Notes: generated by a model not told the origin, from the letters alone. DNA of 52,470 nucleotides from Patescibacteria group bacterium (GCA_019428855.1 JAHYJV010000005.1:1-52470); one strand, 5' to 3'. Counted from the stretch's first letter, positions 9,588 to 52,434 are shown. Numbers and translations are program-made.

Positions 9588-10994
9588 ATGTCTATTAAAT
9601 CAATTATAATAATCTTATTTATTTTTATTATAATCCTTTTTGCAGGATATATTCTCGTGAAAGCATATCCTGCTTTTACGACACCCTATTCACATATTCA
9701 AAATGACAAACCCCTTAAAGTCACATTGGAATATTGGGGTCTTTGGGATAATTCTGATGATTGGCACGAAATTATGAACAAGTTTGAAAATAAAACTTTC
9801 CAACTTAATGGTAAAAATATTATTGTTTCCGTAAATTATACCAAAAAAGATTATACCTCCTACCAAGAAGAATTAGAAGAAGCTAAAAAAAGAAAAATTG
9901 GTCCAAACATCTTTGTGATAAATAACTATTGGTTAACAAATTATATTGAGGAAATTGAACCATTAAGCAATAACCATGCCATTACACAAGAATATTCCCT
10001 TTTAAGCTATAACAACATCTCAACTGTCTTTCCACCAATGGCGATTGCTGATGTTGTATATCAAGAACTAGTTTATTCAATTCCCTTATATTCAGATTCG
10101 TTAGCATTATATTACAACAAAGATTTATTTGAAAAAGCGATGATAGAACATCCACCAAAAAGCTGGAAAGAACTCAAAAAATATGTTAAAAAACTTACAG
10201 CCCTTGATAAAGATGACAAGATTTCACACTTTGGGATATCATTAGGAACAGGGACAAATATCAGTCGTTCATCTGATATTATTTCTTTGCTCATAATGCA
10301 AGGTGGGGGACAAGTGATTAGTGCGAGTGGTGAGGTAGATATCAATAAGAATCTTGAAATAAAAACCTTAAATGGAACCGAAAATAGATTTCCTGGGAGA
10401 AATGCAATCGAATTCTACACGGAATTCTCAAATCCCCAAAAAGAAATCTATTCCTGGAACAATGAACAGTCCAATGCAGTTGAAAATTTTGCCAACGGAA
10501 ACTTGGCCATGATGATTGGCTATAATTATCATGCAAATAATTTGCTGGCAATTAATCCTGAGTTGAATTACGGAATATCTCCAATGCCACAATTGGAAAA
10601 TTCAACTGAAGTTAACTTTTCAAATACTTGGCTACCAGTAGTTTCCAAAGCTAATTATTGTCAAGTAGAACCGATTGAATTTGCAAGTGAGATTGATTGT
10701 GCGAAACTTTCTTGGAGCTTCCTCAGTTTTGCTAGCCAAAAAGATAATGCAAAAATATATTTAGAATCAACAGGGAAAGCTGCTGCTCGCAAAGATTTAA
10801 TCACAGAACAAATTAGCCTTAATAATAATCTCAGTGCTTTCGCATCTCAAGTAGAAAGTTCTGTTTCTTATAATAAATTCAGTGATAAAATTGATAATAT
10901 TTTAGTTGAGATGCTGGACGAAATAAATTTAGATCGAGAAAATATTGAGAAAATAATTGATGAAGCGGTGAAAAAAATTGAGGCATTGAAATAG
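9588..10994 (+). CDS. family 1 extracellular solute-binding protein
   Basis: A 468-residue protein with an N-terminal hydrophobic segment (about residues 5-25) that acts as signal anchor. The mature part has the features of a carbohydrate ABC-transporter binding protein: an early VTLEYWGLWDNSDDW strand, the hinge segment SIPLYSDSLALYYNKDLF, then PKSWKELKKY, and later AVENFANGNLAMMIGY. No lipobox cysteine is present at the end of the hydrophobic segment, so it is probably anchored by the segment itself. No ABC permease or ATPase gene is adjacent, which makes it an orphan in this window. Start at ATG 9588. Confidence 0.8.
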   Translation: MSIKSIIIILFIFIIILFAGYILVKAYPAFTTPYSHIQNDKPLKVTLEYWGLWDNSDDWHEIMNKFENKTFQLNGKNIIVSVNYTKKDYTSYQEELEEAKKRKIGPNIFVINNYWLTNYIEEIEPLSNNHAITQEYSLLSYNNISTVFPPMAIADVVYQELVYSIPLYSDSLALYYNKDLFEKAMIEHPPKSWKELKKYVKKLTALDKDDKISHFGISLGTGTNISRSSDIISLLIMQGGGQVISASGEVDINKNLEIKTLNGTENRFPGRNAIEFYTEFSNPQKEIYSWNNEQSNAVENFANGNLAMMIGYNYHANNLLAINPELNYGISPMPQLENSTEVNFSNTWLPVVSKANYCQVEPIEFASEIDCAKLSWSFLSFASQKDNAKIYLESTGKAAARKDLITEQISLNNNLSAFASQVESSVSYNKFSDKIDNILVEMLDEINLDRENIEKIIDEAVKKIEALK

Positions 10995-19994: not shown

Positions 19995-20420
19995 ATGAAA
20001 TACCTATCTCTTCAAAAAAGTGTTCTCCTTTTATTAATAATCTCTTTTTTCCCATTTGGACAAATTTTGCAAACAAATAGTATTAATATTGCAAATGCGA
20101 CATGTGTTCTTGATACTATTTGCGATAAAGCTGCCGGAGAAACGATGTTTAATTGCACCGATGATTGCCTCGATCCTGGTATTCCGCGTGTTGACTTTGA
20201 TGATATTCTAGACAGGCTAATTGAGTTTGTTTTAGGTATTGGTCTTATGTTTGCAGTCATTTTTCTCATCTGGTCAGGCACAATTTATGCTTCCTCTTCT
20301 GGTGATACCCAAAAGGCTGAGAATGCAAAAAAAACAATGAAATATGCCACTCTCGGCATAATTGTGATTGCCGTCTCGTATGCCTTAATTGTTATCCTTG
20401 ATACAATTTTTACTCCGTAA
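19995..20420 (+). CDS. T4SS-pilin-like two-helix protein, paralogue 1
   Basis: A 141-residue protein with a signal-peptide-like N-terminus (residues 1-34), then a short Cys-rich stretch with five cysteines (TCVLDTICDKAAGETMFNCT and DDCLDPG). Two membrane segments follow, IEFVLGIGLMFAVIFLIWSGTIY and a second after the basic linker QKAENAKKTMKYATLG. The layout and the G-x-x-Y-x-x-SSGDxQKAExAKK loop define the TrbC/VirB2-like T4SS_pilin family common in Patescibacteria. The Cys-rich insert before the first segment is shared only with paralogue 4. It follows the IscU gene after 17 bases. Confidence 0.8.
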   Translation: MKYLSLQKSVLLLLIISFFPFGQILQTNSINIANATCVLDTICDKAAGETMFNCTDDCLDPGIPRVDFDDILDRLIEFVLGIGLMFAVIFLIWSGTIYASSSGDTQKAENAKKTMKYATLGIIVIAVSYALIVILDTIFTP

Positions 20421-20430
20421 ATATAATATG

Positions 20431-20916
20431 GCTCTTTGTCAAAATGTGTGGTGATTGTCTTTCTGACCGCAGTGCAGTAGAAAAATCGCCCTGGACTGGC
20501 ACACATGTTCGAATATACGAGGCATCCTCATTAAATCAGTTTTAATTGGGGAATTGATATTAGATAAAATTTTATGAGATGGAGAGATATTTCTCGGCTC
20601 CTTATCGCCATTCGGGATGACTTCTTAAAGCATTTGTTTTAAATATCATTTTTCAGGGGTGTAGTGTGAATTGTTTATTATTTTGAATTACGAAATAGCT
20701 AAATTTGTCATGGTGAGCTTAAGTTTATGCTGAGCTGGTCGAAGTAAATCCATATTGATTGATTATATTTCGTGAGACTTCAATACTTCGACAAGCTCAG
20801 GGTGACATGGTGGGAGGCTTAGGGTGACAAGTATGTTGAATTTCGTAATCAAAACAATTTATCAATATAATTCTACCACTTCTTTAGTTATCCACCACAG
20901 TTATTAGTGTAGAGCC
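20431..20916. repeat. GGCTC-ended MITE-like element, copy 2 (486 bp)
   Basis: The left end GGCTCTTTGTCAAAATGTGT followed by GGTGATT and the right end ATCCACCACAGTTATTAGTG up to AGAGCC form imperfect terminal inverted repeats (GGCTCT with N12 and GTGGTG against CACCAC with N12 and AGAGCC). The interior has no gene. It carries the REP-like segment shared with 8257-8333, and a second, smaller inverted-repeat element at 20681-20854. It separates pilin-like genes 1 and 2. Confidence 0.65.
20681..20854. repeat. TTTGAATTACGAAAT-ended element nested in MITE copy 2
   Basis: TTTTGAATTACGAAAT at 20681-20696 and ATTTCGTAATCAAAA at 20840-20854 are inverted repeats differing by one base. They match the ends of the perfect element at 48631-48783. 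Inside are GTCATGGTGAGC and CTTCGACAAGCTCAGGGTGA, a very widespread REP-type sequence. The element appears inserted into the larger repeat. Confidence 0.6.
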
Positions 20917-20975
20917 TATTATATTTGACTAAAAATGAGAAAAATGCAATAATATAAAAAATAATCAATATCGCT

Positions 20976-21311
20976 ATGTTAAAAATTAGTTTTGCACTTT
21001 ACGGCTTCCTGCTACTATTTATAACTAATGTCAGTTCTGCTTCTGCACAATGGGTCCTACCTAATAATCATGGTTTATTAGACGATTTAGATGTCGGTAT
21101 ACTTCGCATAACAAATTGGTTGCTAGGTTTTACAACTTCCATCGCCGTACTGGCTCTTATTTGGGGTGGATTAAACTATATCTCTTCTTCTGGTGATGCT
21201 CAAAAAGCGGAACTGGCCAAAAAAATTATCTATTATGCAGCCATCGGACTAACTATGTCGGGAGTAGCTTATGCCTTTGTCAATTTAATTGCCACTAAAT
21301 TATTAATTTAA
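20976..21311 (+). CDS. T4SS-pilin-like two-helix protein, paralogue 2
   Basis: A 111-residue protein with an N-terminal signal segment (FALYGFLLLFITNVSSASAQ, probable cleavage after SASA), then ILRITNWLLGFTTSIAVLAL, the small-residue loop GLNYISSSGDAQKAELAKKI, and a second membrane segment. It is a close relative of the other four pilin-like proteins. It lacks the Cys-rich insert. The next paralogue begins 5 bases after the stop. The likely role is a surface filament or channel subunit, by family; no VirB4, VirB6 or coupling-protein genes are visible in this window. Confidence 0.8.
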   Translation: MLKISFALYGFLLLFITNVSSASAQWVLPNNHGLLDDLDVGILRITNWLLGFTTSIAVLALIWGGLNYISSSGDAQKAELAKKIIYYAAIGLTMSGVAYAFVNLIATKLLI

Positions 21312-21316
21312 TTAAT

Positions 21317-21676
21317 ATGCTAAAAAAAACTAAACTGTTCCTCTATACAAATATATTTTCAGTTTTGACAACTCTGTCACTATTTATTTCAGAAAAAGTG
21401 AAAGCGGAGGGATGGAATATGCCTCCTCCTCCCGTTGGAGCTCCAGCAAGTTTCGATAATACTTTAATAAAAATTACCAATTGGATTTTGGGATTTACCT
21501 CAGCCATTGCAGTCCTAGCTTTAATCGGGGGTGGAATTGTATATATGACTTCCGCGGGAGATGAAGGCAAAGCAGAAACTGGCAAAAAGACGGTAAGTTA
21601 TGGAGTGATTGGCCTAGTTATTGCGGGCCTTGCCTACGCTATTGTCAATGTTATCGTGACAAAAATTATCGGATAA
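21317..21676 (+). CDS. T4SS-pilin-like two-helix protein, paralogue 3
   Basis: A 119-residue protein with signal peptide (residues 1-30), a short Pro-rich MPPPPVGAPASF stretch, then LIKITNWILGFTSAIAVLAL, loop GGGIVYMTSAGDEGKAETGK, and a second membrane segment. It shares the KITNWILGF signature with paralogues 2, 4 and 5. It starts 5 bases after paralogue 2 and ends 16 bases before paralogue 4, which implies cotranscription. Confidence 0.8.
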   Translation: MLKKTKLFLYTNIFSVLTTLSLFISEKVKAEGWNMPPPPVGAPASFDNTLIKITNWILGFTSAIAVLALIGGGIVYMTSAGDEGKAETGKKTVSYGVIGLVIAGLAYAIVNVIVTKIIG

Positions 21677-21692
21677 ATTTTAAAAAAACATT

Positions 21693-22247
21693 ATGAAATC
21701 AAAGCAACTAATCAATGCTATAGCACTCGCATTTTTCATTCTCAGTTTTTCTTTTCTCAGCTTTGTGCCAGTTATGGCAGAGTGCGGCACAACTATTGGA
21801 ACGCTTGAGAGAATTGAAATATGCGATGTAGGAAAATCAGGAGGAGAAATAACAAAAGCTAACCAAGCAAGAGGTGGGGTAAAGACATGTGCAGACATTG
21901 GCGATACTGATGCAACAACCTCAACGATGAAATTAAAATGTAAAGCTGATTGCACGATTGATTCCAGTATGTGTACTGGTGGATTTAATATAGGAGTTGC
22001 ACCAGATAGTGCTCCTGAAGATTTTGATGATGCTATATTAAATTTAACCAATTGGATTCTCGGTTTTGCAGCTTCAATTGCAGTTCTCGCTTTAATTTGG
22101 GGTGGTGTGCAATACATGACCTCCGCTGGAGATACATCAAAAGCAGAAAATGGTAAAAAAACAGTGAGTGCTGGTTTAATTGGCCTCGTTCTTGCCGGAA
22201 TAGCCTTTGCTATTGTCAAGGTTGTAGTAGAAGTAATTTTGACATAA
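21693..22247 (+). CDS. T4SS-pilin-like two-helix protein, paralogue 4 (Cys-rich insert)
   Basis: At 184 residues this is the longest of the five. After the signal segment comes an extracytoplasmic insert with five cysteines (ECGTTIG, IEICDVG, KTCADIG, LKCKADC, SMCTGG), an even longer version of the insert in paralogue 1. The insert may be disulfide-bonded. The common part follows: AILNLTNWILGFAASIAVLA, loop GVQYMTSAGDTSKAENGKKT and the second membrane segment. It may be a minor or tip subunit compared with the short paralogues; that is inference from the extra domain only. Confidence 0.78.
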   Translation: MKSKQLINAIALAFFILSFSFLSFVPVMAECGTTIGTLERIEICDVGKSGGEITKANQARGGVKTCADIGDTDATTSTMKLKCKADCTIDSSMCTGGFNIGVAPDSAPEDFDDAILNLTNWILGFAASIAVLALIWGGVQYMTSAGDTSKAENGKKTVSAGLIGLVLAGIAFAIVKVVVEVILT

Positions 22248-22296
22248 AATATATCATCTTACGCTTAATTATACTTAATCTTAATAAAGAAAGGAG

Positions 22297-22668
22297 GTGA
22301 AAAAAATGACAAAACTATTTAAAACAATTACAGCATCTATTGCAACTTATGCCTTAGTATTTTCGGCCAATGTAACTTTAGCAGCAGAGAAAATTTCAGG
22401 ATGGGGAACCAAAGAGTCTCCTTCATTTGTACCAACAGATATCCGAGGAGCAATTATGAACCTGACAAACTGGATCTTAGGATTTATCTCAATTATTGCC
22501 ACACTGGTAATCATCTATGGTGGTGTATTATATCTTACTGCAGCTGGAAATGACGATAATGTTGCCACCGCAAAGAAAACTATTTCCTATGGCATTATCG
22601 GAGTTGTTATCGCTGGTTTAGCTTATGCGATGGTCATCGTCGTTTCTACAGTTATCTTGAGTTCATAA
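22297..22668 (+). CDS. T4SS-pilin-like two-helix protein, paralogue 5
   Basis: A 123-residue protein with a signal segment, MNLTNWILGFISIIATLVII, the loop GGVLYLTAAGNDDNVATAKK and a terminal membrane segment. A strong Shine-Dalgarno AAAGGAGGTG lies 8 to 12 bases before the ATG pair at 22297 and 22306, the best ribosome-binding site in the cluster, which suggests it is the most highly translated subunit. An intrinsic terminator follows at 22687, closing the operon. Confidence 0.8.
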   Translation: MKKMTKLFKTITASIATYALVFSANVTLAAEKISGWGTKESPSFVPTDIRGAIMNLTNWILGFISIIATLVIIYGGVLYLTAAGNDDNVATAKKTISYGIIGVVIAGLAYAMVIVVSTVILSS

Positions 22669-48630: not shown

Positions 48631-48783
48631 CTTTGAATTACGAAATGCCTCCTTTTGTCATTTCGAAATGAGCGATAGCGATTGAGAAATCCCTTCAACA
48701 ATATAAATTGCGATAATAATATTGAAGGGATTTCTCGCTTAAGGCTCAAAATGACACAAAAATTTGCATTTCGTAATTCAAAG
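48631..48783. repeat. 153-bp MITE with perfect 18-bp terminal inverted repeats
   Basis: CTTTGAATTACGAAATGC at 48631-48648 is the exact reverse complement of 48766-48783. Inside these, TTTTGTCATTTCG and CAAAATGACAC continue the symmetry, and GAAATCCCTTCAA with TTGAAGGGATTTC form an inner palindrome. There is no ORF. A copy with nearly the same ends lies at 20681-20854, and a lone end (CCTTGAATTACGAACT) at 38344. Confidence 0.85.
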
Positions 48784-49149: not shown

Positions 49150-49236
49150 GGAAGGGTGACTGAGTGGTTGAAAGTGCTGCTCTCGAAAAGCAGTGGGCCA
49201 GCAATGGTTCCGCGAGTTCGAATCTCGCCCCTTCCG
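49150..49236 (+). tRNA. tRNA-Ser (anticodon CGA)
   Basis: It starts GGAAGGG TGACTGAGTGG and ends CCCTTCC G. The anticodon arm is GCTGCTCTCGAAAAGCAGT with CGA; the variable arm is long, and the T arm reads GCGAGTTCGAATCTCGC. The G discriminator is normal for tRNA-Ser. CCA is not encoded. Confidence 0.93.
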
Positions 49237-49363
49237 CCTCGAAAAAAAAACTGACACTCTGAAGGTGAACTCCAGCGATATATTGATTTTTCATCTAATA
49301 AAATTGGCTGTATCTCACTTTTTTCCAAGAACATTGTTGTCTTATTCAGAACTTAAGAACATC

Positions 49364-49380: not shown

Positions 49381-49408
49381 TTGACAAGTCTTAAAGTTAT
49401 GCGAGACT
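49381..49408 (+). promoter_or_regulatory. candidate promoter of the RiPP operon
   Basis: TTGACA at 49381-49386 is followed 16 bases later by GAGACT, a poor -10. The corresponding place in the second repeat has TTGACA at 52325 and TAGACT 16 bases on. The -35 is conserved at the same offset (2944 bases) in both copies although the bases between differ, which argues that it is functional. Confidence 0.4.
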
Positions 49409-49490
49409 CTATTATTAAAGTAGTATATGATATAGAAAGAGGAGGGGATAGACAAATGTCTATTTGTTATAGTTCTTTAACAAAAACAAA
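49404..49490 (+). repeat. 87-bp direct repeat, left copy
   Basis: Positions 49404-49490 are identical, base for base, to 52348-52434. The repeat begins AGACTCTATTATTAAAG and includes the ribosome-binding site GAGGAGGGG and the first 11 codons plus two bases of a short ORF. It starts 167 bases after the tRNA-Ser. Confidence 0.95.
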
Positions 49491-49527
49491 TCAACTTTTT
49501 CAAGGGAAGGTTTTTAGAGGGTTATGA
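49456..49527 (+). CDS. leader-peptide ORF, 23 codons
   Basis: ATG at 49456 follows AGGAGGGGATAGACAA, a strong ribosome-binding site. The peptide is MSICYSSLTKTNQLFQ followed by GKVFRGL and a stop at 49527. It resembles no known family. The repeated copy at 52400 has the same first 11 residues and then ends. Its place between the promoter and the hairpins preceding the precursor gene suggests a regulatory leader peptide; it could alternatively be a second small product of the cluster. Confidence 0.45.
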   Translation: MSICYSSLTKTNQLFQGKVFRGL

Positions 49528-49627
49528 GATAAGTTGAAAGTCCATAAAGTAAGTGAATTAATCACTTTATAACTTTCTACTCCGACATATAATCTTTTAG
49601 AAATCTCCCTTGAAGAAGTTAAGGGAG
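49501..49627 (+). promoter_or_regulatory. possible attenuator with competing hairpins
   Basis: Hairpin 1 pairs GAAAG 49536-49540 and ATAAAGT 49544-49550 with ACTTTAT 49564-49570 and CTTTC 49573-49577. Hairpin 2 pairs CTCCCTT 49605-49611 with AAGGGAG 49621-49627. The same CTCCCTT region can instead pair with CAAGGGA 49501-49507, inside the leader ORF (TCCCTTG 49606-49612), so the two states exclude each other. This is the usual logic of leader-peptide attenuation. Confidence 0.4.
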
Positions 49628-49655
49628 TAATATAAAATTCAGGAGGTGATTTGCC

Positions 49656-49826
49656 ATTAAAAAATATAAAAAGCCCGTGGTTGTAAGTCCCGGTTATTCC
49701 CCTGAGCCAGTAGAGGCGGGATGTTGCCTGACTAGTTGCGGTGGATCGCCTGGCGGAATGCAAGCAGGACGACATCTTAATCGCGAAGCTAAATCAACGC
49801 TCGCAATTTTAGAGATGTTAGAATAG
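49656..49826 (+). CDS. candidate radical-SAM RiPP precursor peptide (56 residues)
   Basis: An open frame of 56 codons directly before the radical SAM gene. A perfect Shine-Dalgarno AGGAGGTGAT (49641-49650) ends 5 bases before ATT at 49656, the first codon after an in-frame TGA; no ATG, GTG or TTG suits the spacing, so the start appears to be ATT. The product begins (M)KKYKKPVVV, a basic Y-x-K-P-x-V leader common in radical-SAM RiPP precursors. Residues 21-34 are AGCCLTSCGGSPGG, a compact Cys/Gly core with C23, C24 and C28, and a helical tail of about 20 residues ending AILEMLE follows. The region is strikingly G+C-rich for this window (53 of 90 bases at 49671-49760). Confidence 0.6.
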   Translation: MKKYKKPVVVSPGYSPEPVEAGCCLTSCGGSPGGMQAGRHLNREAKSTLAILEMLE

Positions 49827-49872
49827 ATCATAATAATTTATTCTGCTTGAAAAAATATACCCGATGAACAAT

Positions 49873-49898
49873 GGAGCATAATCTAATAATTATGCTCC
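49873..49898 (+). other. intercistronic hairpin between precursor and maturase
   Basis: GGAGCATAAT 49873-49882 pairs perfectly with ATTATGCTCC 49889-49898 across a 6-base loop. No long T-run follows (GAACTTTTC), so it is at most a weak terminator. Such hairpins in RiPP operons limit expression of the enzyme relative to the precursor. Confidence 0.6.
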
Positions 49899-49949
49899 GA
49901 ACTTTTCTGTGCTACAGAACTGAGAATTATAAGGAGGAATTAAAAAACA

Positions 49950-51179
49950 ATGAGAGTTAAGATTAGAAAAGAAAGAAATTGCTATTTGGCATATTTTATT
50001 GATTCACGCCGAGTAGTGGAGATTAATGAAGTTGGTTCAATTATTCTAAATCTGCTGTTTAACCAAGAAAAAGATACGAAAAAAATCGCTGAAATTATAG
50101 CGGATAATTATCAAATTTCGTTATCTCAGGCAAAGAACGATATCGCTGAATTTTTAACAGAGATTAAAGCAGAAGTTCATCCTAATGGTTTCAATGTAAT
50201 TGAACAAAAGCAACTGGAAGTTCCATTGGGAATAGAGCTGGAAATTACCACTTCTTGTAATTTGTGTTGTAAGCACTGTTTTCAGAAACATCACGATGGT
50301 GCGCATATGCCAACAAAAAAAGTCATCGGCATTATTGGCAAGCTTGCTGATTGTCAAGTGTGCGAAGTGAGTATTATTGGCGGAGAACCGTTTAAGCATG
50401 AAGGACTAATGGAAATTTTGGAGTATTGCCAAAGTCGGGAAATGGCTGTCAATTTAGTTACCAACGCTACACTTATAGACAAAGCTACGATTGAAAAGTT
50501 GGCTAACATTAGTCGTCTTGTCATAATTGTCAGTCTTGATGGCACAAAAGAAATTCATGATTACATTAGAGGCAAAGGTGTTTTTAGCAAAGTTGACTTT
50601 ATTTTAAAACAACTCTGCGCTAAAAACATTGCCATTGAAATAACTTGCACGCTCAATTCGGCTAATCTTCCAATTTATCGAGAAGTTATTGAGTATTGCG
50701 AAAGTCTAGGTGTTCCTTGTAATTTCAATTTGTTTAAGCCATTTAAAACAGAGCACGAGAAATTGATTCCCAATCCTAATATATTTTTTGAAACAATTGC
50801 TGACCTGCTTAGATTGCGACGCGACAAAGAATATAAAATTGGACTATCAAATGCCGCTATTGTTACTGAATTACTTGGATTGCCTTCTCGCAATGAATGT
50901 CGTGCCACAAGATCGGGAATGGTCATTGATGTAAATGGCAGAATGATTACATGTCCCTCGTTGCTTGCAGCTGGTTATTATCAAAAAGATGAACTGCCGT
51001 TTTTTGATGATAATTTCATGGAAACATGGCAAAATCATGAAATCTTTGCTCGCTTTAGAAAGAATGGTCTTCAGGAATGCCAAGCGCGATCTTTTATTTT
51101 CAACAAAGATGTACATGGCTATGATCCGTATGGAATCACTGCTTTTCGCGAGTATTGGCACAATAAAAAAACAGAATAA
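49950..51179 (+). CDS. radical SAM RiPP maturase with PqqD-like N-terminus
   Basis: A 409-residue protein. Residues 1-80 form a PqqD-like recognition domain (RRVVEINEVGSIILNLLF, then ISLSQAKNDIAEFLTEIKAE), the element that binds RiPP leader peptides. Residues 92-300 are a radical SAM domain: CNLCCKHCFQKHH contains the CxxxCxxC cluster motif, followed by SIIGGEPFKHEGL and LDGTKEIHDYIRG. The C-terminal part resembles SPASM/Twitch but keeps fewer cysteines: NECRATRSGMVIDVNGRMIT and C, then LQECQARSFIF and GYDPYG. The last motif has Gly where related enzymes often have Cys, so it may bind one auxiliary cluster rather than two. A good Shine-Dalgarno AAGGAGGAA precedes the ATG. Confidence 0.85.
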   Translation: MRVKIRKERNCYLAYFIDSRRVVEINEVGSIILNLLFNQEKDTKKIAEIIADNYQISLSQAKNDIAEFLTEIKAEVHPNGFNVIEQKQLEVPLGIELEITTSCNLCCKHCFQKHHDGAHMPTKKVIGIIGKLADCQVCEVSIIGGEPFKHEGLMEILEYCQSREMAVNLVTNATLIDKATIEKLANISRLVIIVSLDGTKEIHDYIRGKGVFSKVDFILKQLCAKNIAIEITCTLNSANLPIYREVIEYCESLGVPCNFNLFKPFKTEHEKLIPNPNIFFETIADLLRLRRDKEYKIGLSNAAIVTELLGLPSRNECRATRSGMVIDVNGRMITCPSLLAAGYYQKDELPFFDDNFMETWQNHEIFARFRKNGLQECQARSFIFNKDVHGYDPYGITAFREYWHNKKTE

Positions 51180-51202
51180 TCAAATTAAAATGAAAAATAT
51201 GG

Positions 51203-51229
51203 CTACCGAACAACCGGTAGTCTTTTTTT
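51203..51229 (+). terminator. intrinsic terminator after the maturase gene
   Basis: CTACCG 51203-51208 and CGGTAG 51215-51220 form a stem with loop AACAAC, followed by TCTTTTTTTG. It separates the maturase from the convergent methyltransferase gene ending at 51244. Confidence 0.85.
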
Positions 51230-51243
51230 GAATGTAGAAGTCA

Positions 51244-52164: not shown

Positions 52165-52347
52165 AATGTTTTTATAGATAATAATAATTTATCTCGCGAT
52201 TAGTTTATTCGACTTTATCGGCTTTTAGAATTTTTGTTCAAATAAATTATAGCATATTTACTTTAAAAAGTTTATCCTGAGTTATACTACAAATTTCGGT
52301 GTCATTTTAGATGATTTGGGACCCTTGACAAACTTTTTCTTCGTGCT

Positions 52348-52434
52348 AGACTCTATTATTAAAGTAGTATATGATATAGAAAGAGGAGGGGATAGACAAA
52401 TGTCTATTTGTTATAGTTCTTTAACAAAAACAAA
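52348..52434 (+). repeat. 87-bp direct repeat, right copy
   Basis: Identical to 49404-49490; offset 2944 bases. A TTGACA at 52325 keeps the same distance to the repeat as in the left copy. It lies 184 bases upstream of, and divergent to, the methyltransferase gene start. The window ends 36 bases later, so what it leads into is not visible. Confidence 0.95.

Follow-up and report, generated by a model that had tools for sequence, protein, structure and literature searches.

A probable radical-SAM RiPP cassette of Patescibacteria whose product may act on the large ribosomal subunit, with Erm and ABC-F genes as candidate immunity

Contig C38 of a 0.98-Mb Patescibacteria draft genome rated 100% complete (its 52,470 nucleotides are the window analysed here) holds a gene for a small cysteine-containing peptide, a gene for a radical SAM maturase and a convergent Erm-type methyltransferase gene between two direct repeats (Table 1). 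The likely explanation is a horizontally acquired radical-SAM RiPP cassette whose product acts on the 50S subunit, probably at the exit tunnel or peptidyl transferase centre, and which carries its own immunity. An earlier note had described the peptide and maturase as an operon, which is confirmed, and had interpreted them as substrate and enzyme, which is supported by the relatives described below. It had also considered an antimicrobial product possible, and this idea now has specific support from Erm and ABC-F neighbours that the note had left unused.

Table 1. Features of the cassette and its surroundings in the window, and the related loci
Feature	Position or source	Strand	Remarks
tRNA-Ser(CGA)	49150..49238	+	ARAGORN (L001 701-789)
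Direct repeat copy 1, ~91 bp	49400..49490	+	promoter and 5' UTR of target gene, with short leader ORF
Leader ORF MSICYSSLTKTNQLFQGKVFRGL	49456..49527	+	first 11 codons inside repeat, remainder a fusion into the palindrome
Long imperfect palindrome	49493..49619	+	between leader ORF and peptide gene; MFE -49.9, z = -6.7
Shine-Dalgarno AGGAGG	49641..49646	+	sequence; ATT of peptide gene 9 nt after
Precursor peptide, 56 aa, IKKYKKPVVVSPGYSPEPVEAGCCLTSCGGSPGGMQAGRHLNREAKSTLAILEMLE*	49656..49826	+	ATT start
Leader motif Y-K-K-P-V-V-V-S-P-G (YxxPxVxxxG)	49665..49694	+	common to L008, L009, L108
Core GCCLTSCGGSP	49719..49751	+	GCC[LF]xSCGGSP in 6/7 peptides
Intercistronic stem-loop, terminator-like	49872..49899	+	separates peptide and maturase genes
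Maturase, 409 aa	49950..51179	+	PqqD-like RRE, radical SAM, twitch-type C-terminus
Terminator hairpin	51201..51222	+	separates two convergent genes, for maturase and Erm
Erm-type 23S rRNA adenine methyltransferase, 306 aa	51244..52164	-	NF000499 229.1 bits (cut-off 212)
Direct repeat copy 2	52344..52434	+	leads into contig C1 and native 228-aa membrane protein gene
L008, Candidatus Kerfeldbacteria	MHKD01000002.1		77%; GTDB contigs
L009, Patescibacteria RA.bin9	JAKLIP010000004.1		75%; GTDB contigs
Further loci	G281 (L006/L011), G077 (L007/L012), G705 (L108), G946 (L109)		genome searches
Decayed copies	G813 (L110), G772 (L111)		L110 maturase without N-terminus; L111 C-terminal remnant

The reading frame of the peptide is closed by an in-frame TGA (49647-49649) just before the ATT, the only start that retains the conserved N-terminus; at the aligned position L008 has ATG and L009 has GTG. 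The rare AUU start may make translation sensitive to the state of the initiation factors, or may be a mutation. Over 38 core codons, the comparison of the window with L008 and L009 gives 25 synonymous against one or two non-synonymous changes, so the gene is real, protein-coding and strongly constrained; together with the conserved core, this upholds the 56-residue peptide of the earlier note. E20, G22, C24, G29 and G30 are invariant across all seven peptides, and the same core motif precedes distant maturases (42-55% identical). The follower region after the core, which the earlier note took to be helical, is not conserved beyond the closest relatives. The leader motif YxxPxVxxxG is the probable RRE-binding stretch. 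A YxxPxL motif is conserved in the leaders of lasso precursors (PMC10368454), and the motif seen here would fit binding by the PqqD-like domain that forms part of the maturase. No RiPP-precursor family of Pfam or NCBIfam matches the peptides, nor do they have any RiPP-relevant NCBIfam match that would mark them as MftA-like (mycofactocin) precursors. A peptide match on a viral contig (L107) was set aside as chance, since it covers 40 residues at 46% and has no matching maturase alongside. A search of the open literature for the core sequence, with most subscription literature outside its range, returned no relevant paper. Stem-loops of differing sequence stand between the peptide and maturase genes at the equivalent place in L008, L009 and L108, and the one in the window probably holds maturase expression below that of the peptide.

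The maturase scores above the Pfam cut-offs for both Radical_SAM (48.5 bits, cut-off 29.5) and PqqD (33.1 bits, cut-off 23.4), which bears out the earlier description of a 409-residue radical SAM protein with a PqqD-like N-terminus; its SPASM score of 13.6 bits lies under the Pfam cut-off of 21.5. For the window and L008 maturases the PqqD domain passes the Pfam gathering score; in those of L011 and L012 Pfam finds none. The radical SAM CxxxCxxC cysteines (C103, C107, C110), the twitch-type cysteines (C317, C335, C377) and C160 are invariant in a five-sequence maturase alignment (A1). The nearest solved structure is SkfB (6efn, E 2e-24), an enzyme made of RRE, radical SAM and Twitch domains with one auxiliary cluster (PMC6231123); an AlphaFold run on the maturase from three sequences reached a pLDDT of 51 and gave no usable model. 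The system resembles SkfB and SkfA, the pair behind the sactipeptide sporulation killing factor, in the three-domain plan of the maturase and in its cysteine-containing core. However, no similarity between the cores is seen, no ABC exporter is seen here, and the immunity genes here protect the ribosome. The curated sactisynthase families are all missed (SkfB 75.5 bits, cut-off 300; AlbA 54.1, cut-off 850; StsB 73.4, cut-off 625), as is the PapB-type ranthipeptide maturase (56.3, cut-off 340), and the best NCBIfam score, 102.6 bits to the mycofactocin maturase (MftC) model, is far under the equivalog cut-off of 265. Because it misses these cut-offs, the system is filed as a new RiPP family and not as sactipeptide, mycofactocin or ranthipeptide; the earlier note could not place it in a named class. 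Viral relatives of the maturase are 21-31% identical, and there are no plasmid matches to the maturase family or the peptide.

The cassette can be seen to be an insertion because a genome of the same family but another genus (G008) retains the empty site. A 741-aa gene, a 54-aa gene and the tRNA-Ser follow one another there in the order of the window, and the tRNA-Ser(CGA), which adjoins the insertion site, is kept (blastn 96.7%). After the tRNA gene G008 has the repeat only once, and then a different gene, the start of whose product resembles the 228-aa protein of contig C1 (a weak match, E 0.009). Similarity to G008 runs left of repeat copy 1, up to TTGACA at 49381; 195 bp of non-coding sequence around the repeat align at 74% identity, and copy 1 is 76% identical to the single G008 copy. 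Within the genome of the window, copy 1 is 99% identical to copy 2 and to C1:1-91, the repeat also opening contig C1, with which C38 overlaps by exactly 127 bp. Between the two copies lie the peptide, maturase and Erm genes and no other gene of the inserted unit. No integrase is found within this unit, and its GC content (34%) is close to that of the window (32%). The ~91-bp repeats on its two sides derive from the promoter and 5' UTR of a resident gene, as the empty site shows.

The single G008 copy precedes a different gene, so the promoter and leader ORF are to be read as the target of the insertion and not as a RiPP-specific leader. The earlier note had counted the promoter-like sequence and leader ORF (49400-49527) as part of the RiPP operon, and that part of it falls, as does the idea of the leader ORF as a RiPP-specific attenuator, since the same sequence fronts an unrelated gene in G008. 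The corresponding ORF of repeat copy 2 codes for MSICYSSLTKTK. The hairpins that the note had listed, the palindrome before the peptide gene, the intercistronic stem-loop and the terminator, all hold. The palindrome is a possible attenuator or small mobile palindrome: a wider stretch around it has z = -4.9, and none of L008, L009 and L108 has a fold of comparable z ahead of its peptide gene. Similar palindromes of ~120 bp occur on both sides of the region (window 48650-48780; L010, on C1, 1200-1370) and look like small mobile palindromes of the MITE type.

Eight related loci were found in other Patescibacteria, six of them with an intact maturase. A small ORF lies directly 5' of the maturase in all seven intact loci, the window included. 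Among the six others, five carry GCC[LF]xSCGGSP, that is, a core of the CCxxxC type, and the sixth (G077) is degenerate, its core reading GFCFRGHGGKS with two of the three core cysteines lost. This pairing argues for the peptide as substrate of the maturase, as the earlier note had it; maturase homologues lacking a small cysteine-containing ORF, which would speak against it, did not turn up among the intact loci, with G077 as the degenerate case. In L110 and L111 the maturases are truncated and the peptide is absent, and an ABC-F gene is still adjacent. The maturase family is rare and patchy in distribution: the locus occurs in 3/286, 1/380 and 2/187 genomes, in samples that partly overlap and each count their centring genome, and 381 relatives of G634 (itself counted) gave four strong matches and the G772 remnant. 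Weaker matches in G850 and G817 were assigned to other radical SAM systems.

The loci have no conserved exporter or dedicated leader protease in common. An M16 peptidase accompanies L008, an M28 peptidase with an EamA-type transporter accompanies L009, and nothing similar is present in the window, L011, L012, L108 or L109; the M16 peptidase was rejected as a common leader protease because it adjoins the cluster in L008 alone. Upstream of the L009 cluster and on its strand (L071 10647-14980), the M28 and EamA-type genes are accompanied by a methyltransferase and a second radical SAM gene, ACGX-like but below cut-off, and these genes may belong to a larger L009 cluster. The G077 peptide-maturase pair (L012 9135-10574) sits between two phenylalanyl-tRNA synthetase subunit genes, all on one strand. 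In G850, a PqqD-sized protein is encoded between tandem radical SAM genes (L112 4901-7193), and a C-terminal ABC-F fragment lies nearby (10329-10709), perhaps another peptide system with a remnant of ribosome protection. A second radical SAM/SPASM gene of the genome of the window is accompanied by methyltransferase and NUDIX genes (L013, G000:C45, 243-3636), possibly another peptide cluster; against the mycofactocin maturase model its product reaches 164.7 bits, under the cut-off of 265. Elsewhere in the window (19995-22668), five small two-helix membrane proteins, paralogues of one another, are encoded in a row; they have a motif like NWILGF...ALIWGG...TSAGD..KAE.GKKT and resemble VirB2/TrbC-type pilins.

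The case for a ribosomal target comes from the neighbours of the maturase. The Erm of the window has the NIPF motif, and the housekeeping RsmA is encoded elsewhere, on C17 (175.2 bits). Erm passes the NF000499 equivalog cut-off both in the window and in L009, where it forms one overlapping pair with an ABC-F gene; the two Erm proteins are 59% identical. Genes above this cut-off occur in 3/286 relatives, one of the three (G060) being RsmA-like by its NIPYY motif, while the 14 control genomes have none. ABC-F genes adjoin the maturase in seven of the eight relatives, with 381-476 bits against an NF000355 equivalog cut-off of 380. They are convergent with it in L008 and L009, downstream on the same strand in L011 and L109, and upstream on the same strand in L108 (5' of the peptide) and L110; in L111 the ABC-F gene lies next to the maturase remnant. 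The linkage thus involves at least three gene orders and several ABC-F lineages. When the linked ABC-Fs, a group fixed by linkage before tree building, were forced into one clade, the log-likelihood fell by 91 and monophyly was rejected (p-AU 1e-65). ABC-Fs from genomes without an adjacent RiPP locus interleave among them, and no RiPP adjoins the ABC-F genes of G083 and G056, whose proteins are close in the tree. A single origin being rejected and unlinked proteins being interleaved, the loci gained their ABC-F genes in more than one event.

ABC-F is common (53/141 genomes at E <= 1e-60), and a single adjacency would count for little; what carries weight is that the gene repeatedly lies right beside the maturase, and not its presence in a genome. 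The loci are also partly non-independent, the L008 and L009 ABC-Fs being 76% identical. The G077 locus has neither Erm nor ABC-F beside it, and its genome has no Erm above cut-off and is absent from the ABC-F-positive genomes of the E <= 1e-60 search; this only locus with neither gene adjacent is the one with the degenerate core. The ABC-F genes left without a peptide in L110 and L111 are as expected of leftover immunity. Both the Erm/ABC-F linkage and the decay of the core are correlations over few loci. The window itself has Erm alone with no ABC-F next door, which is counted against the preferred explanation, as is the missing exporter or protease.

Taken together, motif and domain suggest that the PqqD-like domain of the maturase would bind the 56-aa precursor through the leader motif. 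The radical SAM/twitch enzyme would then modify the GCC[LF]xSCGGSP core, and its SkfB-like architecture points to thioether or other cysteine cross-links as the most likely chemistry. Judging from linkage, the product would inhibit translation on the 50S subunit at a site that A2058 methylation by Erm, protection by ABC-F or both would shield, and the producer would be protected by Erm in the window, by ABC-F in most relatives and by both in one.

Erm and ABC-F serve together as self-resistance in producers of tylosin, carbomycin and spiramycin (tlrA/tlrD with tlrC, carB with carA, srmA/D with srmB; PMC6804068), TlrC being an ABC-F protein (PMC10201436). The present loci resemble these producers (TlrC/CarA/SrmB) in placing Erm and ABC-F beside biosynthetic genes. 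Unlike theirs, which is a polyketide, the product guarded here would be a ribosomal peptide, and the ABC-Fs here belong to CPR lineages that score far under the producer-subfamily cut-off. RiPPs that inhibit the ribosome are known in klebsazolicin and phazolicin (PMC7136475, PMC6783444), which share that target with the proposed product but belong to the azol(in)e peptides; neither radical SAM enzymes nor sactipeptides come up in the review PMC7136475. The open literature, subscription journals being mostly uncovered, yielded no RiPP of the radical-SAM kind that has Erm or ABC-F as immunity. The earlier note had held RiPPs to be unexpected in a genome so reduced. Graspetide clusters have, however, been reported from reduced genomes of the Candidate Phyla Radiation (PMC8939145), and the mere presence of a RiPP there has precedents. 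Graspetides are made by ATP-grasp ligases and not by radical SAM enzymes, and no link to ribosome protection was seen in that paper.

Could Erm and ABC-F simply counter antibiotics of hosts or neighbours, with the RiPP, a signal or a bacteriocin for another target, as an unrelated co-resident of the same islands? Many resistance-like genes, erm-like ones included, have been reported in CPR genomes (PMC8651080), ABC-F is common in the genomes searched here, and the CPR genome G053 has an Erm with no RiPP alongside. This view is unlikely all the same, because ABC-F abuts the maturase in seven of eight relatives through changing gene orders and repeated recruitment, the insert in the window consists of peptide, maturase and Erm only, and the locus without an immunity gene has a damaged core. 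A selfish role would account for the absence of a conserved exporter or protease, for a compact inserted cassette with direct repeats on both sides and for the retention of ABC-F in decayed copies: the modified peptide would remain inside the cell and poison its own ribosomes, so that Erm or ABC-F as antidote would retain the cassette. Such an addiction-like arrangement, kept as a rival, seems quite improbable, given that the antidotes are stable enzymes and not labile partners, that a general export route remains conceivable, and that neither maturase family nor peptide has a plasmid match.

In contrast to many antibiotic cores, this one hardly varies between close relatives, which counts against the inhibitor reading and would suit a redox cofactor or regulator of the mycofactocin or PQQ kind, to which the best NCBIfam score of the maturase also points. 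That score (102.6 bits) is nevertheless far under the mycofactocin cut-off, the peptide matches nothing in NCBIfam or Pfam, no companion gene seen resembles a cofactor pathway, the family is rare and patchy, and its linkage is to ribosome protection instead; a cofactor is very unlikely. An unnamed Patescibacteria RiPP family, directed at the large subunit, provided with Erm and/or repeatedly recruited ABC-F immunity and carried in small insertable cassettes, is on these grounds the reading that we favour, with some reserve.

If a large-subunit inhibitor is indeed made, a RiPP family would receive a molecular target, the region of the 50S exit tunnel and peptidyl transferase centre, from the first look at its genomes, since the immunity genes name the target. 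Radical-SAM peptides would be added to the azol(in)e RiPPs already known to act in this way, and a radical-SAM RiPP would have target protection in the style of macrolide producers. An ABC-F or Erm gene next to an RRE-radical SAM enzyme offers a search handle for more such peptides. Patescibacteria are thought to live on other bacteria. The finding, if true, would suggest that they can produce ribosome inhibitors and would give a handle on how such cells might affect their bacterial hosts or rivals.
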